A stretch of DNA of 64,000 nt, from NCBI RefSeq assembly GCF_003350005.1, contig NZ_QLKS01000002.1:372001-436000 (forward strand). The letters are read 5' to 3'. The notes beneath the pieces are model-generated. The model ran no database searches, was not told where the DNA came from, and saw only the letters and a list, made by a program, of their open reading frames with translations. Below, one piece after another: positions 11,543-25,770 of this stretch; within the stretch, counting starts at the first letter, position 1, and every line of letters begins with the position of its first letter. The DNA is from Psychrobacter proteolyticus. GTDB lineage: Bacteria; Pseudomonadota; Gammaproteobacteria; Pseudomonadales; Moraxellaceae. Both the position numbers and the translations under genes were made by a program.

Positions 11543-14500
11543 TTAAAATGCAGAATTGCTGCTTAGACGCTGGTTCTTACGAGGGTCTTCACGTTTAAAT
11601 AAGTCTTCATCGAACTTAAAGCGCAATCTGAAGTAAGCACCTTGCTGAGTACTGTCGTCATAAGCAATATCTTCATCTTCAAAGCCCATGAAGTTATAAC
11701 CAAGTGATAACCAAAGGTTGGTCATAGGGCTATAACCCACTTCTGCACCAAGCATATAAGCTAAGTCATTTGCCTGATCATTCCAGTAAGTACCTGCTTG
11801 CAATCCAATATCCCAGCGCTCACTAATATCATAAAGACCGCGGCCATAAACAGCGTGAGCCGTGTTATTGCTGGTTAAGCTGTCTGCTTCGTATTCTGTA
11901 TACTTACCAGCATAACGTCCAGACAACGTCAACGGACGCGTAGGATGGTAATTACCATTCCATGACCAAATCATGGTATCTTTTTGATAAACATCATCGC
12001 CAGTATTATTATCATCCAAACGATATTCGAATTTTGCAAGCATATCTAACTGATTGCTATCGTAGTCACGATACGCAGCACCTAGCTGAAAACGATTGAT
12101 AGTGCGATCGCCATCACTATAGTCAGTACGTGAGTAGATATCTTTGGCTAAGAAGGTAACCTCATCAGTATAGCGATAGGCGATACCAGCACTACCAAGT
12201 AGCGTATCACTTGTTTCACCCCAACGTTTTTCAAAACGTCCTGATGCTTTATAATTCTCTTTAGCAAGATATTCAACACCGATACCTGCCGCTGTTGCAG
12301 TGTTACTTTCTTCACCTTCGAGAGATTCGACACGCTCAAATAAAGTATTTAAAGTTAGCCCTTCTTGAACATACCACTTGTTTTTTAGACCAATAGCTGC
12401 TTCTGCCTCACGTGCACTAATGGCATCGCGCATGCGGTATTCGCTATAAACCTTACCATCTTTCATGTAAGTCGCGTCAAAACCAACAGTGGTACGTTGA
12501 CGCTCATCTGTATCATCAAGACCATAAGTGCCAGATAGGCTGTTGATCAAATCATGACGAGCGTATAGACGACCCAAGTCCCCAAGCGCTGTCTCACCAC
12601 CGATAGAAGTTGCATTACGTGAGCTATTTTCGATATCTTGCTCATACTCTGCAAATACCAAGCTGTTATTCAACTTAGGTAGACGAGAGGTAATACGAGC
12701 ACGAACAGTCGTACCTTCAATATCTTCTTCAGCGTTACTAACGCTGCTCAACGCTGACTGATTGATGATGTCATCATTAAACAAAGTGTCGTCTGTAATA
12801 TCTACAACGTCTGTCGCGGCTTGAGTATTACGTGAGGCAGCAGTCGCGTCTTGTTTGTAATAACGAACCCCAATTTCACCAACGATGTTTTCACTTAAAC
12901 GATGCTCAACGCTTGCTTGCACGCCTTCGCGGCTAGCGTCAGTAGTATGCTCTTCTGTGCGTATGCCTTCTAATTTCAGCGCTGTTTTTTTGTCGTTGAA
13001 TGTATGGATGACTTCTACGCCAGACTCCGTACGTCCAGCAGTAAGCGGTGATGCACCAGTGACAAAACCTTTATCTGCATCATTGTAATAAGCCTTGGCA
13101 CGCGTGTCTTTCTTATTATCAAAGTCAAGCTCGACACGTAAGGCATTGCCCTCAACATTGTTATCGTCTAATTCTGTGGTATTGATCTGATTACTTGGCT
13201 GAAAATTTGGGTTCTCAGCTTTGTTCATCGCATATTCAGCGACTAGCTTCAGCTTATCATTGAATTTAACAACACTGTTAACACTAGCCAACTCTTCTTT
13301 GTTCATTGGGTCATCGCTATTCACATAGCTACCACCGATGGCGACTTTGTTCGTTAGTTGCTGCTTCGCTGCAATACCACCGACGAAGTAATCTTCACCG
13401 CCTTCATCAACTTCGACAGTGACACGGATATAGATAGGATTGCCTTCGATATCTTGACTAGCAATCGGTGCCGTCAAGAATAAGCTACGGCTGATAGGGT
13501 CAATCTCATAATCAGCAAAGCGAGTAAGCGCCTCACGATTGATAATCAACCCAGGGTTGTTGGCGTCACGAGTAATAACTTCAACCGTTTCAGAGTTTTC
13601 TAATACCGCATCGAAGTTCTCAGCCAATGGATATGGGCCTGAAATGCCCAAACCACGAGTCTCATTTACCCGTTGGCTAGTACTGGTTTCTGCTAAAAAG
13701 GCAGTAACGCGAGTATTGCTATCTTCAAATTGAGCTTTTAGACCAGTTAATGTGCGGTTGTATTGACCAAGCTTGATGCCTTCGTCGTCATCAATCTGAG
13801 TTTTCAAATCACCATACATAGCGAACGAACGACCTTTATCAAGGCGCACGTAAAGCTTGCTAGTAGACTGAGCATCGAAGCCTTTAGCTGATGAGTCGCC
13901 ATAGACAGGATAGTATTCACCCGGCTCGATATCACGGAACAAACGCTCGCCTTTTTTATCACTATCATAAGCAAGCGTTAGCAGGTAGTCGCCGCGCACT
14001 TTTCCTTTTAGGAACATTGCGGCACGACCAGAAGCTGTGTAATCATCACCACCAGCAAAGTCATTTAGCTCTTGCTCAAATGCACCTTGAGCATCGGTAA
14101 TGCTGCTACCGTCAAAGTCTTTTAGTGAAATAGCACCTTCTATAATACCAACAGAAAGTAGTGGACGTAGTTGAGCTGTAAACTGTAACGGAATGATTTG
14201 TTTGCTGCTACCAGTGTCAATTACTAGCTCGCCCTTACCTGGTACGCTAGGTGCAGTTACGGGTATTAACAGCTCACCACCTGATACAGTCACTTGGGTG
14301 CCAGCTTGATCTTTGCTGCTGTCTTCCAAATTGATACGACCGATATTAGTATCAAGCGTAAGAGAAGTAGTACCAATATAAGGGCGATTATCGCGATCTT
14401 TTAGGCTGATGACGACTTGGTATTCACTAATACCGTCAGCTGGAACTAACTGTGCTTGAGTACGGTAGTCGATAGCTTGTAGGCTGTCAGGAGTTAGTAC

Positions 14501-16870
14501 TTTAATCGTCTGCTCAGAGATGATCTGACCATTTATATCAGTCGCAACACCGCGTAAGGTGTTCTTGCCGCGCTGTAAATCAACAGCATAGTAATCGAAA
14601 GCCGTTACATTCTGTTTTTCTTGCTCAGCAGTTTTACCTATTTTTTGTTCTGATACAGCTTTGCCGTTGGCATATAGTGTGAACACAGACCCAAGCGGTG
14701 CCTGAACCTGTACCATTTGTTTATAAGTGCTAAGCTGCTGACCTTCGTTTAGGTTAATGAAGGCAACATCGTTACTCGCCACTTCTTTTAAGTATTCTTC
14801 GAGCTCTTTTTCTACTGGTGGAGCAACAGTGGTTACCGTCATGTCAACACGGCTATCTACTGGATTGACCATGTCATTAACGATAGCCGAATCACAACTA
14901 TTACCAAGGTCTAAGTCACCATTAATGTTACAACCACTAGCATCTACATTATCGGTAGTATCGGTATCATAGTCAGGATCCAAAGTCAGTTCGGTTTTTA
15001 CCGCTTGCTCTAACGTGTCATTTTTAGCTTCTACTAATTTGCTACGAGCAATTAGCTCAGCGTTTAAGCGCTCAGTGCTATCTGCCATGCCACCAACGAT
15101 TGCAAAATCTGCACGATGCAGTTCACCGTATTTCAAATCAACAAAACGACTACCGGCATCACCAGCATTGCGATTGCTTTGAGTGACCAGTTCAGTTTCT
15201 CTAGGAATGGTAGTACGATCGACCTTTAGTACGTGTGTTTTTGCACTGATACCATAGAAGTTATATTTACCTTCAGGATCAGTCACGATGAAGTTGCCGT
15301 TCTCCATATAGATACGTACACCAGCGACACCCAGCTCGCCATCTTCTTTTTGCTGAATACCATCGCGGTTGATATCGTGATAGACCTTACCTACGATAAT
15401 ACCATCGGTATTCATCACGCCGCGGCTTACTTCGACAGGCCACTGCGCTTCTCTTGATGTCAATGTATTGTTGCTGTCATCACGACCGTATGCAGTCGCG
15501 CGATTGATACCATCGCCGCCTAGTGATGACGCACCGATGAGCACACGATAAGTAATTTTTTTACTTTCGCCAACTGCCATGTTTCCTAAGTTCAATACCT
15601 GATATTTACCATCAGCTTTAAACTCGGTAGTCTGTGCTTGATTGATATCAAGATTAGTCGTTGGACTAACACGTACACTGTTCTCAACGTAGTCAAAACC
15701 ACGTGGTAAAGCGTCTTTTAGTTGTACATCGTAAGCAGTCGATTTGCCGTTATTGGTAATATCGATGGTATAGCTGACATAATCACCAAGCTCTGCAGTT
15801 TTGACATCGCTTTCTTTAGTGACGACTAGGCTTGCATTATTATCGATGATGTTTACTTGAGAGCTCAGATCATCGATACGTACAGTAAAATCGCTATCAT
15901 TTGGTAGCTGATCAGCACCTGTGCCAACAGAAGGAGCAATACAAGCTGTTAACTCAGCAGTCAACGTATCGTCGACCAATGTCTGAATCAGTTTATCGTC
16001 AATAGCATTGGCATTATTCTGTGTTGGTGCAGATAAGTGATATTTGCCTGTATTATTACCAGTTTCAATTCCTTTAAGAGAGTAGGTATCACCAGTCATT
16101 GGCGACTTAACAGTAATCCATACTTGATCAGGTTTATCAGATTGCACGTTACACTGCGCGTAACTGGCATCAATATAAACGTTGTCCCCGATTTGCGAGG
16201 TGGTTTTAGTACCGTCAAATTGAGGGGTGGTAAAGTTGATTTTAGGTTCAACAATAACCAGTCTGTCAATTGCTTCAACAGCCGCGATGGATGGATCTTC
16301 TAATATGATAGCGCCAATCTTCACATCAGCGGTATCGCCATCTTCACCGTCAGCATCTGATAGAGCCTGTACGATAAGCTGAATACTCTCACTCTGACCA
16401 AGTTTGATCTGAGCGCTCAGGTTATCGAGCATGATTTGTCGATCTTCTGAATCGACTTCTCCGTTATTATTAAGATCTTGATAGACCTTTAAATTAGAAA
16501 CAGTTGGTGATATAGCAAGTGTCAATTCAACAGTCTGATCACTATAGCTGGTGTTACTCAGTACGTTGACCCAACTTACCTGTGTATTAGGCATGACTGT
16601 ACGTAAAGCATGCTGAGTCAAACTGATACCATATTCAGGTAAATTTGAGGCTTTTACTTGTACTTGGTTTGAGTCAGTACTGATAGTCGTGCTGGTCTCA
16701 CTGTCAACGTTGTAGCTGGCTTGAGCAGTATTGCTGATCAGCTGTACCAATGTATCAGTTGCAGCAGATGCGGTATTTGATTGCATAAGCAACATTGCAA
16801 ATGACAGCGCAGAGATCTTCGCTGTAGGCAACGTAGCACGATTAGACAGTGTCATTAAAGATTTAGTCAT
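11543..16870 (-). CDS. Giant outer-membrane protein with DUF11, SdrD-like and large beta-barrel regions
   Basis: A 1775-aa protein starting at the ATG preceded by GGATAAG; a TTG five codons earlier lies within that site. Order: signal peptide 1-36; a beta-sandwich region 37-340 with a calcium-loop-like DLNNNGEVDSED (132-143); a DUF11-like domain about 345-480 (LVVTKESDV, GDYVSYTIDITNNG); an SdrD_B-like domain about 488-590 with DINRDGIQQKED (499-510); a charged helical linker; a short loop bounded by Cys647 and Cys659; two more Ig/invasin-like regions to about 900. Then come some 850 residues of alternating polar/aromatic strands rich in Tyr, Asp and Arg (YPVYGDSSAKGFDAQS, FVGGIAAKQQL, LGAEVGYSPMTNLWLSLGY), typical of a very large outer-membrane barrel. 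The last strand GAYFRLRFKF fits a BAM-type beta signal. Role is inferred: surface anchor, adhesin or exporter for its neighbours. Confidence 0.78.
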   Translation of the reverse strand: MTKSLMTLSNRATLPTAKISALSFAMLLMQSNTASAATDTLVQLISNTAQASYNVDSETSTTISTDSNQVQVKASNLPEYGISLTQHALRTVMPNTQVSWVNVLSNTSYSDQTVELTLAISPTVSNLKVYQDLNNNGEVDSEDRQIMLDNLSAQIKLGQSESIQLIVQALSDADGEDGDTADVKIGAIILEDPSIAAVEAIDRLVIVEPKINFTTPQFDGTKTTSQIGDNVYIDASYAQCNVQSDKPDQVWITVKSPMTGDTYSLKGIETGNNTGKYHLSAPTQNNANAIDDKLIQTLVDDTLTAELTACIAPSVGTGADQLPNDSDFTVRIDDLSSQVNIIDNNASLVVTKESDVKTAELGDYVSYTIDITNNGKSTAYDVQLKDALPRGFDYVENSVRVSPTTNLDINQAQTTEFKADGKYQVLNLGNMAVGESKKITYRVLIGASSLGGDGINRATAYGRDDSNNTLTSREAQWPVEVSRGVMNTDGIIVGKVYHDINRDGIQQKEDGELGVAGVRIYMENGNFIVTDPEGKYNFYGISAKTHVLKVDRTTIPRETELVTQSNRNAGDAGSRFVDLKYGELHRADFAIVGGMADSTERLNAELIARSKLVEAKNDTLEQAVKTELTLDPDYDTDTTDNVDASGCNINGDLDLGNSCDSAIVNDMVNPVDSRVDMTVTTVAPPVEKELEEYLKEVASNDVAFINLNEGQQLSTYKQMVQVQAPLGSVFTLYANGKAVSEQKIGKTAEQEKQNVTAFDYYAVDLQRGKNTLRGVATDINGQIISEQTIKVLTPDSLQAIDYRTQAQLVPADGISEYQVVISLKDRDNRPYIGTTSLTLDTNIGRINLEDSSKDQAGTQVTVSGGELLIPVTAPSVPGKGELVIDTGSSKQIIPLQFTAQLRPLLSVGIIEGAISLKDFDGSSITDAQGAFEQELNDFAGGDDYTASGRAAMFLKGKVRGDYLLTLAYDSDKKGERLFRDIEPGEYYPVYGDSSAKGFDAQSTSKLYVRLDKGRSFAMYGDLKTQIDDDEGIKLGQYNRTLTGLKAQFEDSNTRVTAFLAETSTSQRVNETRGLGISGPYPLAENFDAVLENSETVEVITRDANNPGLIINREALTRFADYEIDPISRSLFLTAPIASQDIEGNPIYIRVTVEVDEGGEDYFVGGIAAKQQLTNKVAIGGSYVNSDDPMNKEELASVNSVVKFNDKLKLVAEYAMNKAENPNFQPSNQINTTELDDNNVEGNALRVELDFDNKKDTRAKAYYNDADKGFVTGASPLTAGRTESGVEVIHTFNDKKTALKLEGIRTEEHTTDASREGVQASVEHRLSENIVGEIGVRYYKQDATAASRNTQAATDVVDITDDTLFNDDIINQSALSSVSNAEEDIEGTTVRARITSRLPKLNNSLVFAEYEQDIENSSRNATSIGGETALGDLGRLYARHDLINSLSGTYGLDDTDERQRTTVGFDATYMKDGKVYSEYRMRDAISAREAEAAIGLKNKWYVQEGLTLNTLFERVESLEGEESNTATAAGIGVEYLAKENYKASGRFEKRWGETSDTLLGSAGIAYRYTDEVTFLAKDIYSRTDYSDGDRTINRFQLGAAYRDYDSNQLDMLAKFEYRLDDNNTGDDVYQKDTMIWSWNGNYHPTRPLTLSGRYAGKYTEYEADSLTSNNTAHAVYGRGLYDISERWDIGLQAGTYWNDQANDLAYMLGAEVGYSPMTNLWLSLGYNFMGFEDEDIAYDDSTQQGAYFRLRFKFDEDLFKREDPRKNQRLSSNSAF

Positions 16871-16913
16871 ATGTCGCTTATCCAATAAAATATAAAGGGG
16901 TAGAGTAGTAACT

Positions 16914-16954
16914 CTCCAGCTTGGCTAATCAAAATCGATTAGGTCAAGCTGGAG
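16914..16954 (-). other. Long imperfect intercistronic hairpin
   Basis: CTCCAGCTTGG and CTAATC on one arm pair with GATTAG and CAAGCTGGAG on the other: about 16 bp with a small bulge and a 6-nt loop. It lies between the 702-aa and 1775-aa genes, 44 bp upstream of the latter's ATG. There is no U tract. Confidence 0.65.
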
Positions 16955-16958
16955 CATT

Positions 16959-16990
16959 AGTCTATAAGCGTCTCGTGAAGCTTATAGACT
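16959..16990 (-). other. Perfect 11-bp intercistronic hairpin
   Basis: AGTCTATAAGC (16959-16969) and GCTTATAGACT (16980-16990) form a perfect stem with a 10-nt loop, 20 bp after the 702-aa gene's stop and adjacent to a second hairpin. No U tract follows, so attenuation or mRNA processing is more likely than simple termination. Confidence 0.65.
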
Positions 16991-17009
16991 TTGAAATATT
17001 AAATATAAA

Positions 17010-19118
17010 TTAACGAGCGTTTTTGATTTTGATCTTAAAGGTCAAGGTGCCAACGCCGCCAGGAACTATAGTGTAGTTACTACCAAGAACCGCAGTAGCC
17101 GAAGTGCTAGCTGTGCCTGCAGTAGATGACGTAGTAGCAGAAGTAGCAGGTGAGTTAGCTACTAAATCCGCACCAGCTGAAAAGTTAGACAGCAAATCCG
17201 AAATCGTTACACCAGTAAGATTAAAACCTAATGCTGCTGAAGAAGTGTTAGTCGCCTGAATACGATAGATAACACACTGATCAGGGGTTGCATTGAGCAC
17301 AGTTTGAACAAAGGTACTTGCAGCAACGGTAGCTTCACAAGCAGTATCTAGTGATTGAGACTTCACTAAAGATAAGCCTCTGACATTAGTCGTATCAGTC
17401 ACTGAAGTAGCAGCAGGCGCACCAACACCAGCTGGGGTCAAAGTTACGATAGTCGTTTCAGTGCTACCAACAGCCGCCGCATCAGCAGCAGTTGCAGGAG
17501 TAGTGACATTACCTGAAGAGACATTATAGTTGATTGCTAATGTGCCACCAGGTGCAATACCATTTGGAAATTGAGCGGTTGGTAGTGTAGTGCTATTAAG
17601 AGTGTACGTATTACCACCAGCAACGGTAGGTTGTAGCGTTATAGTAACTGGAGCTCCACCATTAGGCGGTGTATAAGTAACACTGATAGGATCAGTAACC
17701 GGTCTGACAGCCGCATTATTGCCACCATCAGCAATAGTGAAAGTCAATGGATTGGTATTAGTACCTTCAGCATCCTGACCGCTGTTAATAATAGTAGTCT
17801 TCTGTGTGACTTGACCATCAGTACCTGAGGCAGGGGCAATTTCTCTAGTCGTTGGATTGCTCACTATAACCGCTCGTCTGGTAAAGTTAGTCACACCAGC
17901 AGTATCTATACCAGCGCCGTTACCTTCACCCGCATCATCAGGTATTCTAGTAACACCTATAGTGCCATCTGTACTATCAAAAATATCATAGTCAGTACCA
18001 AGTACAGGAGCAGCAATTAACGGGCTAACCGGACCGACGAACTTATCGTAGACTTCTGCGTTGTTAGTTACTGAACTATTAGCAGCTGTATACTGATCTC
18101 TATCGACGTTAACCGTGAAAGTAATCGTGCGACTTGCGCCAACAGCTAAGTTTGCTACGGCAACATTAATAGCTTGTCGAGTACCGACAGTGGAAATCGT
18201 AGCGGTACCAGCACCAGTTACGGTCACGTCTGATGCTGCGCCATTAGGCAAACTTAAACCTGCAGGAAGGACATCCCTGATGACAATATCAGTCGCAGCA
18301 GCACTATAGTCAGTAGTAGCGTTAGTCACTACGATACTATAGTTGATCTGCGGATTAGCTACTGTCAAATCGACAGTACTCGTCGCTGTTTTTACAATTT
18401 TGAAGGTAGGCAATCTCACGATAGTTTGGTTTTCATTCACCAATGTCGCATTTGCTGGAAGATTAGCAGTAAAGAAAGTACTGGTTGCTGTTAATGTACC
18501 TACACCTTTGTCATTACCATTACGAGCGTCTGGCGTAGTTGCTTCGTAGCTTAAGTTAGCTCTAGTACCTGGCTGTAGTCTAATAGTACCACCATTGGTT
18601 AGGGTACCTGTCTGTGCCTGACCATTCAAAGCGGCTACTTGAGTAGAAGTTAAAGGAGTACCATCTGCTTGTACAATAGTAAACGTAACAGGCGCAGTAC
18701 CTAAAGCATAGTCTGGATTAGCCGTTACTAGTGCTGAGTCATTACCTGTGGTATTAATGGTATAAGTATCCGTCACGTTACCCGTGTTGGTTAAATTATG
18801 AGTAAAGGTAGTCGTACCACCTGGCGTAGCAGTCTGATTGATAGCAATATCGTCACCAATGCTGCCATCATCAACAGTCGACGTGAGTGCAAAGTTAGCC
18901 GTTTCGCTAACATTGACAGTCACGATGTTTGACGTCACGTTTGGCTGAGCGATACCAGCAACACTGTAGTTTGCGGTTGCAACGTTATTGATGGCAGCAG
19001 CACCTGCACTAACACCACCAGTAGTATTAGGAGTAGCTGCATTAGCACCACCAGAGATACCCATTACTGCGGCAATACCGACAGCAAGCAAGCTATAGTT
19101 AAAAGTATTTGATTTCAT
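17010..19118 (-). CDS. Secreted DUF11-type repeat protein
   Basis: A 702-aa protein with a start fixed by GGAG six bases before the ATG. A signal peptide is clear (hydrophobic core LLAVGIAAVMGI, cleavage near GGANAA). The mature chain is Thr/Ala/Val/Asn-rich beta-sandwich repeats of the DUF11 kind, with recognisable units such as TFTHNLTNTGNVTDTYTINT, IVVTNATTDYSAAATDIVI and VLPAGLSLPNG. The N-terminus (INNVATANYSV, then SNIVTVNV) matches the N-terminus of the 1775-aa protein (ISNTAQASYNV, then SNQVQVKA). The C-terminal 120 residues (LSLVKSQSLDTAC, DQCVIYRIQATN, TISDLL) match the C-terminus of the 676-aa protein. It is 77 bp downstream of the 154-aa gene and 139 bp upstream of the giant gene. 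Likely a cell-surface or extracellular structural protein; no enzymatic motif seen. Confidence 0.8.
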   Translation of the reverse strand: MKSNTFNYSLLAVGIAAVMGISGGANAATPNTTGGVSAGAAAINNVATANYSVAGIAQPNVTSNIVTVNVSETANFALTSTVDDGSIGDDIAINQTATPGGTTTFTHNLTNTGNVTDTYTINTTGNDSALVTANPDYALGTAPVTFTIVQADGTPLTSTQVAALNGQAQTGTLTNGGTIRLQPGTRANLSYEATTPDARNGNDKGVGTLTATSTFFTANLPANATLVNENQTIVRLPTFKIVKTATSTVDLTVANPQINYSIVVTNATTDYSAAATDIVIRDVLPAGLSLPNGAASDVTVTGAGTATISTVGTRQAINVAVANLAVGASRTITFTVNVDRDQYTAANSSVTNNAEVYDKFVGPVSPLIAAPVLGTDYDIFDSTDGTIGVTRIPDDAGEGNGAGIDTAGVTNFTRRAVIVSNPTTREIAPASGTDGQVTQKTTIINSGQDAEGTNTNPLTFTIADGGNNAAVRPVTDPISVTYTPPNGGAPVTITLQPTVAGGNTYTLNSTTLPTAQFPNGIAPGGTLAINYNVSSGNVTTPATAADAAAVGSTETTIVTLTPAGVGAPAATSVTDTTNVRGLSLVKSQSLDTACEATVAASTFVQTVLNATPDQCVIYRIQATNTSSAALGFNLTGVTISDLLSNFSAGADLVANSPATSATTSSTAGTASTSATAVLGSNYTIVPGGVGTLTFKIKIKNAR

Positions 19119-19195
19119 GTAGTACTCCAAAATGGATGGTAAAAGGCCGAATTAATAATGGAAGGGTGAAAAATAAAGGTTTAATCTTCTGTTGA

Positions 19196-19660
19196 TTAGT
19201 TAACAGTAGTGTTTAAAGCCACAGCAGCTGATTTTTTAGCTGGCAACAACTTGATATTCCAGCGTAAGGTACGGTATTCAGAATACGGAATTTTAACCAT
19301 TTTGCCATCGACTTTGCGCATTAGCGGCATATCAGCATAGTTCTTACCATCAGTGCTGGCTTGTGCGCTGGCAGGATTTGCCTCACCAGTAAATGTCATG
19401 TTTGCAGGGATAGGCAATGTCACCATCAGATCATTAATGTCTTTATTGATGGTATTGGTATAAGTTGCTTTGTATTGAATGACAGTACCAGCTGGTGCTG
19501 TACGTACTGGTGAATATACTGTTTTGCCGTCCGCATTCTTAATGACCTGATTAGCAGTCAGTTCCATTTTTAGAGCGTCGTCAGCATGAGCAGTACCTAG
19601 CAAACAAGTGGAGGCAAAGGTTGCTAGCATGACATTATGTAAGAAGTTAAAACGTTTCAT
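19196..19660 (-). CDS. Small secreted single-domain DUF11-like protein
   Basis: A 154-aa protein with a strong ribosome binding site (AAGGA, 6 nt before ATG) and a signal peptide (MKRFNFLHNVMLATFASTCLL, cleavage near GTAHA). The mature 130 residues form one beta-sandwich-like domain with the pattern seen in conserved-repeat proteins: GTVIQYKATYTNTINKDIND, LPIPANMTFTGE and ASTDGKNYADMPL. It contains no cysteines after the signal. It is sandwiched between two large repeat proteins on the same strand, 248 bp after the 676-aa gene (with a terminator between) and 77 bp before the 702-aa gene. It could be a minor subunit, cap or periplasmic partner; this is inferred only from context. Confidence 0.78.
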   Translation of the reverse strand: MKRFNFLHNVMLATFASTCLLGTAHADDALKMELTANQVIKNADGKTVYSPVRTAPAGTVIQYKATYTNTINKDINDLMVTLPIPANMTFTGEANPASAQASTDGKNYADMPLMRKVDGKMVKIPYSEYRTLRWNIKLLPAKKSAAVALNTTVN

Positions 19661-19845
19661 ATAAAATCCTTTCTTAGAACATGACTATCAGTAAAAAGCG
19701 AACGTCGTATATTATGGTAGAGAAACTAGTAATCTAATATCATTCGTCATTTAAAAGGCATCTATCTCCCTTTTTTCTATTTTCACATAATTAATACAAT
19801 TAATCATAACAAGAATGATAACTGGCATTTTGGAGCATACAAACG

Positions 19846-19877
19846 GTAAAAGCCTTGTCTGGCTAGACAGGGCTTGA
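19846..19877 (-). terminator. Rho-independent terminator of the 676-aa gene
   Basis: Read on the minus strand, AAGCCCTGTCT, an AGCC loop, AGACAAGGCTT (11-bp stem with one wobble) and a TTTT run. It lies about 35 bp after the stop of the leftward 676-aa surface-protein gene. The downstream genes may therefore have their own promoter or depend on read-through. Confidence 0.75.
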
Positions 19878-19908
19878 TTAAGTGCTCAGTGATTTGATAA
19901 ACAGGTGT

Positions 19909-21939
19909 TTAGTTGCTAATGGTAGTACCATATTTAGTATTAAAACGAATAGCCTGACGGCGAGTGGCGGTGGTAGCACCTAAAGAAAAAGTATTGGTGG
20001 TAACTGTACCGTTGTTGCCAATAGATACCGAATTTGTTGCAAATGATGGAGTGCCACTATTCTCACCAATAGGTGTTGGATTGACTAAGGTAGAGGTAAT
20101 CGACGAATTATTAGAGTCATTTTTACTCTGTAGTGTATCTTTGATAATAATATCTGCTAGGGAAACGTTACCACGATTTATCGCTTCAATTCTATAAGCG
20201 ATACATTGTCCAGGGATAATGTCAGATATTGGTTTTGTACTATACGCACTACTAGCACTACCGTCATAATTAACACCAATTGTGGCAAGGTTGTTTAGGC
20301 TACAGTCATGGACATACTGACTTTTGATTAATACCAACGCAGAATTTTCTTGAACAACATCACCGAAATTATTGCTAGGGTAGTTGTATTTACTGTTAGT
20401 AATGTCTATTTGTAGGACATTGCTCGTAGTATCTACAGAATATGTATAATTGCTAGGCTCATTTTGAGTAACGCAAAGCCTTGTATAACTACCTACTTGT
20501 GCTGCCGTCAAGCTAAAACTATAGGTTCCATCATTACCAATGTTTACCGTCTGAGGTGAGAACGTACCACTATCAGTTGTACATTTATTTAGAGTAACGG
20601 TATGACCCGTAGTAAAGGGAATACCAGATTCAGTCGGTGAATCGTATTTGCCATTGAAATAAAAACTATTACTTAGGTATTTGCTAGATATATCATCCTT
20701 AGATGGACTTAAAACATTACCATTGTCATTAAATACAAAACCTGAGAAAGTATAACTAGCAGGAGTGTTAGTAATTGTACACGTAATTTCATCACCGTAA
20801 GTCGTATTACTGAGCGTAAATGAACGAGTTTTGGTCGTGGAGTTATAGCTCATTGCAGAACTAGGCATGACGGTGGTACTACCTGTAGTAGCGTTACTAC
20901 ATTTATAAGTAGCGTTATAGCTTGCTATATCGCCCAAGGTGGTACCATTCATCACGCGTTCAGTAATGGTATAAGTTGTACTTTCTGTCAAGGTAAGTGT
21001 AGCGCTAGTACCATTAGTAATTGTTGAGCCTGTTCCAGTAGTAGTAAAACTATTTGTAGCCACTGAACCGCCACTAACTACAATCTCAAATTGATCATTG
21101 CTATTAATACGTGCACCACTTAATGCTTTCTTCACTATGATTTTGGGCGGCGCGAGACAAAAGTAAAAATCAGAGTAACCTACCCCATGAGGACTATTTG
21201 TTTCACTTACCGTATTGTTATGTTTTAAATTAAGTGCAATATCAGCAAGTGTATAATTCCAGTTCGCGTCAATCGTACATTCACCTGTACCACAGTTTAG
21301 GCCTTTTCTACCAGTTACTATATTTCTATTCGTGTTAATAGTGTGAAACGAACTGTTATGTGTTAATTGTCCACTATTGGCAGATACGTCAATCTGTTCT
21401 ATATATGGTGTCAAAGAGCCGTTAGTCACTGAGTCCAGATCCTGTATTTTATACCCCATCTTGCTAGTTGGACGATTGACACTCACATCCACAACATGAT
21501 TGGTTCTAGAGGTAGATGATACTGGAGAGTTGTGTACTAGGTTTAAGGCTGAAGTTGTGACTCCATTTAATGTTCCGTAAAAAGGTGGCGTACCACCATA
21601 GTTACTATTCAAGTCTATTACTGAAGAAAAATTTATTCTGAATATTTTATTTCCTGATGCTTCATTAAACGTAAAAGTATTTGATAGGTTTCCCGTTGTC
21701 CAACTTAAAGAAGTGCTGACTACAGGCGCGTTAGTAGTTGATGTAGGCGCATTCGCACCAATGTAGTACATTTTATGGTTGGCAGGACACATCCCAGTAT
21801 TGGAACTTTCTGTTGATTCAAAGCTGGCACTGGCATTATTACTTAAGAAGCCTAATGAGACAGCAGTTAGGATAATTAGTTGATAAGCAAAGACACTACT
21901 CAAGTATGAATACAAATGATTTTGATTTTTATAGAACAT
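19909..21939 (-). CDS. Large secreted multi-domain surface protein
   Basis: A 676-aa protein with an N-terminal hydrophobic signal (about residues 15-35, cleavage near NNASAS). It is Asn/Ser/Thr-rich and more AT-rich than the flanking core genes. Visible regions: an N-terminal domain starting MCPANHKMYYIGANAP and including VNRPTSKMGYKIQDLDS; a domain beginning IIVKKALSGARINSNDQFEI with paired cysteines, of the kind that decorates surface proteins; an SdrD-like module (SGFVFNDNG, then DGTYSFSLT); and a C-terminal DUF11-like module (LVLIKSQYVHDC, PGQCIAYRIEAINRG, FNTKYG). No catalytic motif or sortase signal is seen. Divergent from a decayed paralogue and aceE upstream. Probably exported to the surface; partner relation with the giant barrel protein is inferred. 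Confidence 0.78.
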   Translation of the reverse strand: MFYKNQNHLYSYLSSVFAYQLIILTAVSLGFLSNNASASFESTESSNTGMCPANHKMYYIGANAPTSTTNAPVVSTSLSWTTGNLSNTFTFNEASGNKIFRINFSSVIDLNSNYGGTPPFYGTLNGVTTSALNLVHNSPVSSTSRTNHVVDVSVNRPTSKMGYKIQDLDSVTNGSLTPYIEQIDVSANSGQLTHNSSFHTINTNRNIVTGRKGLNCGTGECTIDANWNYTLADIALNLKHNNTVSETNSPHGVGYSDFYFCLAPPKIIVKKALSGARINSNDQFEIVVSGGSVATNSFTTTGTGSTITNGTSATLTLTESTTYTITERVMNGTTLGDIASYNATYKCSNATTGSTTVMPSSAMSYNSTTKTRSFTLSNTTYGDEITCTITNTPASYTFSGFVFNDNGNVLSPSKDDISSKYLSNSFYFNGKYDSPTESGIPFTTGHTVTLNKCTTDSGTFSPQTVNIGNDGTYSFSLTAAQVGSYTRLCVTQNEPSNYTYSVDTTSNVLQIDITNSKYNYPSNNFGDVVQENSALVLIKSQYVHDCSLNNLATIGVNYDGSASSAYSTKPISDIIPGQCIAYRIEAINRGNVSLADIIIKDTLQSKNDSNNSSITSTLVNPTPIGENSGTPSFATNSVSIGNNGTVTTNTFSLGATTATRRQAIRFNTKYGTTISN

Positions 21940-22169
21940 ACTATTGCGCCTTCTAGTTTATGCTTTCAATTAACAAAAAATCAAACATTGTATTTAAGAG
22001 TATTTCAATGAGTAATCTTAAATACAATAGTTAATAAAGACTAACTATATGTTACGAAAGGTAGTTATAGTATGACGAAATGCAAATAATTTGCAAGTTG
22101 AACTAGAAGTATTTATACATATATGAAATGAGATAAGAATAGTAAATCACCGTTCTCTAAAGATAAGCT

Positions 22170-22615
22170 TTATTGCGGTGAAGTATATTTAGTATTGAAA
22201 TATAGTCCTGCTGAGTTTGGCTGTGTACCACTTATAACGACAGACAACAAACTGTACTTATTAGAATGACCTTCACCCTTAAAACCTGTGGTATGTCAAC
22301 GCTATGGTTGCTAATATTTGGACAAGCTAAGTTGTCGTCATGCTCATAAATATATTGTCATTATATGAATATTAAGGCGATATTATTTGCTGCGATATCA
22401 CCGAAATCCGAGTTATTGTAGTTACAGCCGTAATTTGTGAGCGTGATCTCTTGGCTATCTGTAGTACTGTCTCCTGAGTAATTCCACACAGTTGGTTCAC
22501 TTTTTATAAGACGGATTCTTATTATGTTGACTAGTACACTAGCAGGTACTATGCAACTGTAAGCCTTTCTAATAGAAGAAATACTCGGAACAGTGTGAGA
22601 GCTTAATATAGTCAT
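22170..22615 (-). pseudogene. Decayed C-terminal fragment of a paralogue of the 676-aa surface protein
   Basis: On the minus strand an open stretch reads YSCIVPASVL, then EPTVWNYSGDSTTDSQEITL and NNSDFGDIAANNIALIFI. This parallels YSFSLTAAQVG, EPSNYTYSVDTTSNVLQIDI and SNNFGDVVQENSALVLI in the 676-aa protein. Two in-frame stops follow, then QYIYEHDDNLACPNI (compare QYVHDCSLNNLATIGV). After a frameshift the ending GLYFNTKYTSPQ* aligns with AIRFNTKYGTTISN*. Similarity fades upstream of 22615, so about 450 residues of the N-terminal part are missing, as is most of the final module. This is a relic of a tandem duplication or recombination. Confidence 0.8.
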
Positions 22616-22959
22616 TTTTAAAAAAACTAATCATTATTTATTTAAAAAATACTTGTTATTTCATCATTTCTCTACAGCCATAAACAACTAGCGCGTAAAC
22701 GCTTATAATGGAATGTCATAGTCAATTAACGATTAAATGAATGGTTACAGTATTATTACGGTTTGACGGATGTGTTGATTTGATGCATTCGTTGATACGA
22801 GTAGTACTATTTTTATAATCGAGCAATATGTCACCGCATAAAACAATGGAATGCTTGGACGTAGCAAGGATGTCATAAGTAAACCAATCTCTCATCATGC
22901 ATTTTTCAATGAAGACCTGCCATTAGGTAGGTATGACTGATATAAAAGGATTAACAAGA
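22616..22959. promoter_or_regulatory. Region upstream of aceE
   Basis: About 340 bp between the pseudogene remnant and aceE. No gene is supported. It presumably holds the aceEF promoter. I see no convincing palindromic PdhR-like operator or riboswitch. Confidence 0.4.
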
Positions 22960-25770
22960 ATGAATTATTATAAGGATGCTGATAGCACCGAAACTCAGGA
23001 ATGGCTGGCAGCCTTTGAGTCTGTGGTTAAACACGCAGACAAGGACCGTGCTCAGTTTCTCCTAAAAGCCTTATACAATATGGCGGTTCAAGAAGGACTG
23101 CCGTTCAACAGACTAGACACTGCGTACGTCAATAGTATCGCTGTTGAAGACGAGCCAATGTACCCAGGCGATCTAGGCATGGAGCGTAAGATACGTGCGC
23201 TAATTCGTTATAACGCACTTGCCATGGTCATGCGTGCTAATAAAAACGACGATGATCTAGGTGGTCACTTAGCGACATTCGCCTCTAGTGCAACACTTTA
23301 TGAAACGGGTTTTAACCATTTCTTCCGCGCAGCTAGCGATCACTTCGGTGGCGACATGATTTATTATCAAGGTCACTCAGCTCCAGGTATCTATGCACGT
23401 TCTTATCTAGAAGGTCGTTTGACCGAAGATCAGCTCGATAACTTCCGCCGTGAAGTAGGCGGCAAAGGTCTATCAAGCTATCCGCATCCATATCTCATGC
23501 CGGATTACTGGCAGTTCCCAACCGTATCAATGGGACTTGGTCCAATCATGTCCATCTATCACGCCCATGTACATCGTTATATGGAAAACCGTGGCTTGCT
23601 AGAAAAAGAAGGTCGTAAGATTTGGACATTCTTAGGTGATGGTGAGACTGATGAGCCAGAAAGCTTAGGTGCAATTTCTCTCGCTGGCCGTGAGAAGTTG
23701 GACAATCTAATATGGGTAGTTAACTGTAACTTGCAGCGTCTTGATGGTCCAGTCCGTGGTAACGGTAAAATCATTCAGGAACTAGAGTCGGTATTCCGCG
23801 GCGCAGGCTGGCGAGTCATCAAAGTCATTTGGGGCGGTAACTGGGATTCATTACTTGGTAAAGATCATACGGGTGTCCTTAAACAACGTATGGAAGAAGT
23901 GGTGGATGGTGAGTATCAGCTATATGAAGCGCGTACGCCTGAATTTACCCGCAAAGAGTTCTTTGGTAAATATCCAGAGTTAGAAGAGATGGCAGATGCG
24001 TTGACTGACGAAGAAATCTCACGTCTGAACCGTGGTGGTCATGATCCAGTTAAAGTTTATGCTGCCTTTAGCGAAGCTATGAAAACCAAAGGCCAACCGA
24101 CGGTTATTTTGGTTAAGACCGTTAAAGGTTATGGCTTATCTGCTCAAACGCAAGCAGTCAACAAATCGCATCAGGTTAAGAAGCTTGATCAAGAAGCGTT
24201 GATGTATTTCCGTGATCGTTTTGATTTGCCATTTACTGATGAGCAGTTAGAGACTCTACCATTCTACCGCCCTGAAGAGGGTTCGGCGGAGATGAAGTAT
24301 CTCAAAGGTCGTCGTGAGTCGTTAGGTGGTCATCTGCCAAACCGTCGTAGTGGTCATATCCCACTGAATATCCCTGAACTATCAATGTTTGATCGGGTAT
24401 TAAAAGGCAGCAATGGTAAAGAGCAGTCTACGACGATGGTATTTGTACGCTTACTATCTGCGATGCTTAAAAACAAAGACATCCAAGATCGCGTCGTACC
24501 AATTGTACCTGACGAAGCGCGTACGTTTGGTCTAGAAGGTATGTTCCGTCAATTGGGTATTTACTCGGCTGTTGGTCAAAAATATACGCCAGAAGACAGT
24601 GAAGCGTTGATGGGCTATAAAGAAGCTATCGATGGTCACATGTTGGAAGAAGGTATCAACGAAGCAGGCGCAATGAGTACTTGGATTGCATTAGCAACCA
24701 GTTATTCTGTGAACGCGCTACCGATGATTCCGATGTATATCTATTATTCAATGTTTGGTTTCCAGCGTGTGGGCGATTTGGCTTGGGCGGCAGGTGATTG
24801 TCAAGCACAGGGCTTCTTGTTAGGCGCAACCGCTGGTCGTACGACACTTAATGGCGAAGGCTTACAGCATCAAGATGGTCATTCGCAGATTCTATTCAAT
24901 GTCGTGCCAAACTGTGTCAGTTATGATCCTTGCTTTGGTTATGAGCTAGCCGTTGTCATGCATGACGGTCTACGCCGTATGTATGGTGAAGGCGAGCGCG
25001 TTTACTATTACTTGACGTTGATGAACGAAAACTACGAGCAACCTGAAATGCCAGAAGGTGCCGAGGAAGGTATCAAACGTGGTATGTACTTGTTAGAGGA
25101 CAATGGCTCAACACAAGTACAGCTACTAGGTTCTGGTGTAATCTTACGCGAAGTACAAAAAGCGTCACAGATACTAAAAGACGAGTTCAATATTACGTCC
25201 AACGTCTGGAGCGTAACCAGCTTTAATGAGCTGACTCGCGATGGTATGGTTTGTGATGACTACAATCGTCTACATCCAATGGATGAAGAGAAAGTGCCTT
25301 GGATTACTGAGCAGTTAGCACCGCACGAAGGTATCGTGGTTGCAGCGACAGACTATATGCGTAACTACTCAGAGCAAATCCGTGCTTGGTTACCAGATAA
25401 CCGTCCTTACACGACTCTGGGTACCGATGGTTATGGCCGTTCTGATACGCGCGAAAACCTACGCAGTTTCTTCAATGTTGATGCTGCTCATATCGTTGTA
25501 GCAACGCTTAAACGCCTAGCGGATGAAGGCGAAGTTGAAATGCGTTTGGTTAAAGACGCGATTTCAAGCTTAGGTATCGATGTGGATCATCCACCTGCAT
25601 GGCAACAGCAGTCTTACTATGACCAGTCTCCAGATGCACCAGCACCAGGTAACGTAAATCCAAATCCTGTACCTGAATTTATCGCTGAAGACGATGACGA
25701 AATCAGTAATGAAGGTCGTGCTGAAGATCAAGCAGATGCAAATTTGCTCGATGATAAAGATGTCAAATAA
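22960..25770 (+). CDS. aceE: Pyruvate dehydrogenase E1 component (homodimeric)
   Basis: A 936-aa thiamine-diphosphate enzyme that decarboxylates pyruvate and passes the acetyl group to the E2 lipoyl domains. The TPP/Mg motif GDGETDEPESLGAI ending in NCNLQ is intact. Long conserved stretches such as LPFNRLDTAYVN, YQGHSAPGIYARSYLEGRL and NEGLQHQDGHS-type sequence are present. The start MNYYKDAD is chosen because AAGGA sits 9 nt before it; an ATG nine codons upstream has weaker context. The C-terminal about 60 residues form an acidic, Asp/Pro/Asn-rich tail (from APAPGNVNPNP on) that makes it longer than the usual roughly 890 residues. aceF follows by 28 bp; no lpd gene follows. Confidence 0.96.
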   Translation: MNYYKDADSTETQEWLAAFESVVKHADKDRAQFLLKALYNMAVQEGLPFNRLDTAYVNSIAVEDEPMYPGDLGMERKIRALIRYNALAMVMRANKNDDDLGGHLATFASSATLYETGFNHFFRAASDHFGGDMIYYQGHSAPGIYARSYLEGRLTEDQLDNFRREVGGKGLSSYPHPYLMPDYWQFPTVSMGLGPIMSIYHAHVHRYMENRGLLEKEGRKIWTFLGDGETDEPESLGAISLAGREKLDNLIWVVNCNLQRLDGPVRGNGKIIQELESVFRGAGWRVIKVIWGGNWDSLLGKDHTGVLKQRMEEVVDGEYQLYEARTPEFTRKEFFGKYPELEEMADALTDEEISRLNRGGHDPVKVYAAFSEAMKTKGQPTVILVKTVKGYGLSAQTQAVNKSHQVKKLDQEALMYFRDRFDLPFTDEQLETLPFYRPEEGSAEMKYLKGRRESLGGHLPNRRSGHIPLNIPELSMFDRVLKGSNGKEQSTTMVFVRLLSAMLKNKDIQDRVVPIVPDEARTFGLEGMFRQLGIYSAVGQKYTPEDSEALMGYKEAIDGHMLEEGINEAGAMSTWIALATSYSVNALPMIPMYIYYSMFGFQRVGDLAWAAGDCQAQGFLLGATAGRTTLNGEGLQHQDGHSQILFNVVPNCVSYDPCFGYELAVVMHDGLRRMYGEGERVYYYLTLMNENYEQPEMPEGAEEGIKRGMYLLEDNGSTQVQLLGSGVILREVQKASQILKDEFNITSNVWSVTSFNELTRDGMVCDDYNRLHPMDEEKVPWITEQLAPHEGIVVAATDYMRNYSEQIRAWLPDNRPYTTLGTDGYGRSDTRENLRSFFNVDAAHIVVATLKRLADEGEVEMRLVKDAISSLGIDVDHPPAWQQQSYYDQSPDAPAPGNVNPNPVPEFIAEDDDEISNEGRAEDQADANLLDDKDVK

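Follow-up and report, generated by a model that had tools for sequence, protein, structure and literature searches.

A decayed surface-protein gene beside aceE in Psychrobacter proteolyticus most likely descends from a former tandem pair

Genes and features at the locus

The window analysed here is a stretch of 64,000 nucleotides from Psychrobacter proteolyticus, whose assembly comprises 3.03 Mb in 20 contigs. Its surface-protein locus adjoins the plus-strand gene that starts at 22933, which we take to be aceE. Moving away from aceE, the minus strand carries a gene relic, the gene for a 676-aa surface protein (family A), a 154-aa gene, a 706-aa gene (family B) and the gene for a 1780-aa protein (Table 1). 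In many congeners, the match to aceE does not start until residue 7-9 of the open reading frame in the window (22933-22960), and the true aceE start may lie a few codons downstream of 22933. The flank on the aceE side retains 81-92% identity in the closest congeners, and one terminator-like hairpin is present at 22690-22703, compared with a shuffle mean of 0.2.

Table 1. Coordinates of the genes, the relic and the intervening stretches in the window.
Feature	Position	Strand	Remarks
1780-aa protein gene, DUF11 domain, conserved far end of locus	11543..16885	-	median 91% identity, 13 close genomes
706-aa variable surface protein gene, family B	17010..19130	-	median 35% identity, 13 close genomes
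154-aa gene, most conserved small member of locus	19196..19660	-	in 86/89 full-length loci
676-aa surface protein gene, family A, presumed former second gene	19909..21939	-	SpaA_3 domain 267-393; first ~85 nt like A2 of G025
Spacer, relic to 676-aa gene	21940..22169	-	type found between both A genes of tandem pairs
Relic segment 2, other frame: C-terminal tail, ending FNTKYTSPQ*	22170..22286	-	compared with last 40 residues of A1 of G025
Relic segment 1	22295..22597	-	family A residues ~468-568 of A1 of G025; two adjacent stops 22358-22363
84-aa ORF	22361..22615	-	chance start in flank fused to relic's frame
Conserved aceE-side flank	22609..22932	.	alignable part ends ~22608-22622 in congeners

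The 1780-aa protein contains a DUF11 domain (PF01345, E 3.3e-14). No literature treating this locus was recognised among the titles and abstract openings considered; in part of the text of PMC12282271, nearly all apparent mentions of DUF11 are the longer name DUF1194.

The 676-aa protein contains a SpaA-type prealbumin domain (PF20674, SpaA_3; E 1.5e-25), and a search by sequence returned no solved relatives at E<=0.01. Its predicted model, computed from 20 aligned sequences (mean pLDDT 70.9, pTM 0.54), consists of an N-terminal helix followed by a chain of beta domains. The nearest fold matches of this model include staphylococcal, streptococcal and lactobacillar adhesins and pilins, such as SraP, SpaC, YwfG and a streptococcal major pilin; no TM-score over the query exceeds 0.17 among the matches listed, and they are a hint only. 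The low-score matches SraP and YwfG are lectin-bearing adhesins, and the N-terminal beta domain of the predicted model (residues ~50-265) may be lectin-like. An adhesin-like role at the cell surface is plausible for the 676-aa protein. The adhesive or antigenic function expected by an earlier reading, made by a model from the sequence alone (hereafter the sequence-only reading), is putative, being suggested only by the SpaA-type domain, the weak adhesin and pilin fold matches and the variability of the protein.

A decayed family A gene between aceE and the 676-aa gene

Between ~22597 and 22170, the minus strand holds a decayed piece of a family A gene, the family to which the 676-aa protein also belongs. 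In a small tblastn search restricted to 22100-22930, the 676-aa protein gave one clear match (E 2e-12) on the minus strand, with 33% identity over 73 residues (473-545 of the protein). When the whole genome was searched with the same protein, the relic was the sole match besides the gene itself (E 1.1e-8). This similarity is far above chance, because the real relic scores 45.4 bits, compared with at most 23.9 for the best match in 1000 base-shuffled versions of the gap. Homology to intact members of family A is also significant, reaching E 3.6e-22 for A1 of G025, a congener with two A genes in a row (A1 and A2).

The reading frame of the relic is disabled. The first ~468 codons are gone, two adjacent in-frame stops are located at 22363-22358, and the frame changes near 22295-22286 (~22290), where ~195 nt of family sequence are absent relative to G025. 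The tail continues in the other frame and terminates as GLYFNTKYTSPQ* at 22170. The relic is a pseudogene, a 3' stub of surface-protein family A. The sequence-only reading had described a decayed minus-strand remnant similar to the 676-aa protein, which lacks the N-terminal part, is interrupted by two in-frame stops and a frameshift and ends in FNTKYTSPQ*; all of these features were recovered in our analysis.

An independent small gene at 22361-22615 was also considered and rejected. The sequence-only reading had named an intact, unrelated small gene conserved at this position as one finding that would speak against a relic. The ATG of the 84-aa ORF is part of the aceE-side flank, at a place where G025 has non-coding DNA, and the remainder of the ORF is the frame of the relic. 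The ORF has no Pfam match at E<=1.

Changes on the branch leading to the relic are spread evenly over codon positions 1, 2 and 3 (17/80, 21/88 and 9/42). Counted in the same way, the intact genes of G025 (6/69, 5/72 and 18/51) and G032 (11/74, 3/70 and 33/66) have changed mostly at the third position, and the pattern of the relic differs from both (Fisher p 2e-4 and 1e-6, respectively). A third intact gene, that of G018, is less clear-cut (10/80, 14/88 and 13/42). Cysteines 489 and 546, which fall in the retained part and are invariant among 20 A proteins, are both replaced in the relic. The relic has decayed without coding constraint.

Nearest relatives of the relic

The protein comparison of the relic covered 41 loci, those of the window and 40 congeners. 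The best match was not the neighbouring 676-aa gene, but A1 of G025, with 48% identity over ~100-101 aa for segment 1 and 55% over 40 aa for the tail. Next came proteins of G032, G013 and G018, and the 676-aa neighbour followed far lower, at 33%. The DNA of the relic likewise matches G025 (69% over 321 bp), then G032, G013 and G018; a weak match (59%) is found in G094, whose A gene is of the 676-aa gene's type. Against the 676-aa gene itself, nothing better than 15 of 16 bases was found. The alignment between remnant and 676-aa gene that the sequence-only reading had proposed exists at the level of protein, but not of nucleotides.

When the relic's DNA was searched against the 105 whole genomes of the genus set, only its own genome and G025 were matched. 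This result also bears on the idea that the stretch functions at the RNA level, as leader of the 676-aa gene or as its regulator. It is positioned between the aceE-side flank and that gene, so a read-through transcript would include it. However, a DNA match in two of 105 genomes, one of which is its own, argues against such a role, as do the absence of an Rfam match in 19000-23000 and a number of promoter-like sites at chance level (7, shuffle mean 6.7). We consider a function of this kind highly improbable.

A family tree was calculated from the C-terminal part of 80 A proteins and the relic, as a quick tree without bootstrap that omitted G097, G079, G080, G083 and every A protein shorter than 450 aa. 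Here, the relic sits on a long branch (0.99) and groups with G025 A1, G018, G013 and G032 (SH-aLRT 95). This group is nested in a set of nine rows (SH-aLRT 99), which includes the first gene of the G123 pair, that of the G075 pair and the two G035 genes. The 676-aa gene is placed in a separate set of 15 rows. In AU tests, for which six long-branch genomes were additionally omitted (G095, G027, G110, G111, G116 and G124), forcing the relic together with these 15 rows was rejected (p 0.0018), and so was forcing it together with the nine nearest (p 0.0008). The relic and the 676-aa gene come from different lineages of family A, that of the relic being the older one.

The sequence-only reading had regarded the relic as a second copy of the 676-aa gene, which would imply a lineage-specific duplication followed by the decay of one copy. 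The relic indeed adjoins the 676-aa gene, on the same strand, and is a member of the same family. Yet it shares 33% identity with this neighbour compared with 48% with G025 A1, its DNA aligns with the neighbour over no more than the 15 of 16 bases mentioned above, and the AU test rejects the grouping. Identity and AU test together rule out a simple duplicate of the 676-aa gene, and we regard a lineage-specific duplication as very unlikely.

Variability of the locus across Psychrobacter

The genus set comprised 105 genomes, two of which were unread at the locus (G031, which has no aceE match, and G113, where the contig is too short). In the 89 loci for which 16 kb or more were read, one intact A gene was found in 59, two in nine and none in 21. 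The class with two A genes is mixed, and contains A-A pairs, repeats of an A-154-B block (G061, G121, G100 and G062) and a weak second match (G083). The 21 loci without an A gene include those of G097 and G079, both genomes with many broken genes. The 154-aa gene is kept in 18 of the 21 full-length loci without an intact A gene, G097 and G079 being among the 18. Because it persists in such loci, the 154-aa gene may have a role of its own.

Sixteen genomes have an aceE protein with at least 99% identity, and 13 of them were used to assess variability; G093 (contig end), G105 and G097 were left out. In these 13 genomes, the median identity of A proteins (37%) and B proteins (35%) contrasts with that of the 154-aa (88%) and the 1780-aa protein (91%). 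Such comparisons mark 11543-21939 as a hypervariable surface-protein locus. Three types of A gene, which were defined after inspection of the family tree, require at least eight changes on the aceE tree among 22 genomes. The window itself is 97% identical to G115 (L106) over 15978-20820, from the middle of the A gene into the 1780-aa gene, rising to 99-100% in the final part of the A gene, whereas the aceE flanks are only 80% identical. This is likely a recombination tract, since similarity is lower on either side of it.

To gauge how common relics are, 268 gaps (120.8 kb) were scanned against 164 A and B proteins, and 21 gaps gave matches, whereas shuffled gaps gave none. Nine of these matches, in nine of the 103 loci with the window counted, look like stand-alone relics (G000, G012, G013, G014, G020, G024, G030, G032 and G089). 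The other 12 gaps hold gene edges or start-site questions (G071, G115, G075, G124 and G062), a contig cut (G001), split genes (G022, two gaps) or belong to genomes with many broken genes (G097, G077 and, with two gaps, G079). As G013/G032 and G030/G089 look like shared events, the independent relic events may number ~7. Like the relic of the window, those of the other loci (G012, G013, G014, G020, G024, G030, G032 and G089) are short decayed A or B pieces located between aceE and the conserved genes. Unlike it, they derive from other family members or other gene parts, with B pieces in G012, G013, G032 and G020, whereas G024 keeps the front part of an A gene.

In G030 (L147) and G089 (L146), only a decayed A tail lies beside aceE, and G030 also has an intact A gene ~90 kb away, as if moved. 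In G071 (L064) and G115 (L106), an in-frame stop is found just before the listed A start, in a stretch 86% identical to the first 44 residues in another genome, which raises the question of start-site or decay.

The sequence-only reading had proposed duplication and turnover of the surface protein at this locus. Turnover finds support in surface genes that are far more variable than their neighbours and in the nine of 103 loci with relics. Duplication of the 676-aa gene, in contrast, is contradicted by the AU test.

Probable origin of the relic from a tandem pair

The spacer between the relic and the 676-aa gene provides a further clue to the history of the locus. Among 102 congener loci, parts of it match only G025 (79%) and G075 and G123 (77%) at E<=1e-3, each of which has two A genes in a row. 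The spacer was not seen in G016 and G035, two more genomes with A-A pairs. With up to 3 mismatches allowed, the spacer block is present as a single copy in the genome, and no repeated element was found. From the spacer through ~85 nt into the 676-aa gene, the sequence aligns with the A1-to-A2 passage of G025.

An intact counterpart at the same place exists in a relative, as A1 of G025 (L068:1266-3296) followed by the spacer and a second gene. Like the relic, G025 A1 is located at the same locus beside aceE, is a member of the same family and precedes a second A gene with the same kind of spacer. Unlike the relic, it has an intact reading frame of 676 codons, whereas the window retains the tail alone. 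In G025, the sequence equivalent to the relic is found ~2.0 kb further past the aceE-side flank; by other yardsticks (G032 or G018), the missing part would be nearer 1.6 or 2.6 kb. No clear repeat was seen at the deletion junction.

The type of the relic, the tandem-type spacer and the placement in the tree together argue for a two-gene ancestry in which the first gene lost its front. A tandem-pair origin is most likely, and we assign a probability of about 0.78 to the reading that the window descends from an A1-A2 arrangement, with the relic as the 3' stub of the former first gene. Against this stands the observation that G013, G032 and G018 have a single gene of the relic's type, so the type of the relic alone is no proof of a pair.

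Alternatively, a single older gene of the relic's type may have been displaced by a new A gene that recombined in together with its own spacer, the front of the old gene being cut in the same event. Such a replacement would fit the different A types found at the same place in close congeners, as well as the tract shared with G115, which extends from mid-gene A into the 1780-aa gene at 97% identity despite aceE flanks of 80%. However, the tandem-type spacer and the A2-like start of the 676-aa gene are explained more simply by a pair that already existed, and we consider replacement rather unlikely. All that separates the two scenarios is whether the locus ever carried both genes in intact form at the same time.

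In the favoured tandem-pair scenario, the locus would have started with an A1-A2 pair of surface-protein genes beside aceE. A deletion of ~1.6-2.6 kb would then have removed the DNA behind the flank up to ~codon 468 of A1, including the start and the signal peptide. The remaining tail of A1, free of coding constraint, would have gathered two stops, an internal deletion and the change of frame. The second gene of the pair, A2, would survive as the 676-aa gene, whose spacer and first ~30 codons still appear A2-like, whereas its C-terminal half is of another type, nearly identical in the G115 lineage. We infer that this lineage formerly had the two genes in intact form and that the events followed this order; selection for surface variation may be what drives the turnover.

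A broader scenario would extend this picture to the whole genus. Here, the region from ~22608-22622 to the 154-aa gene would be a genus-wide Psychrobacter site at which species exchange whole surface genes of no fewer than three ancient types, with pairs as intermediates of replacement and stubs as leftovers. We put this forward tentatively and regard it as doubtful.

Significance and comparison with known systems

Taken alone, the relic is an ordinary gene fossil and a new example of a known thing. At the variable locus beside aceE, it is evidence of an earlier, different and probably paired arrangement in this lineage. Together with the intact pairs, the single genes and the relics of other congeners, it makes a cycle of gain and loss traceable step by step within one genus.

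Surface-gene fragments that lack a start and lie next to an expressed gene are also a feature of silent-cassette antigenic variation, such as the vls system of Borrelia (PMC11499132). By analogy, gene conversion could transfer sequence from the relic, kept as a silent cassette, to the 676-aa gene. This possibility is close to negligible: only one copy is present, stops lie inside it, it has no DNA-level identity to the 676-aa gene and its codon-position pattern is flat. A silent cassette of an antigenic-variation system was rejected, as neither high DNA identity nor several cassettes were found. According to the abstract of PMC11499132, the vls cassettes form arrays ~90% identical to the expressed gene, whereas the relic is one piece with 33% protein identity to its neighbour.
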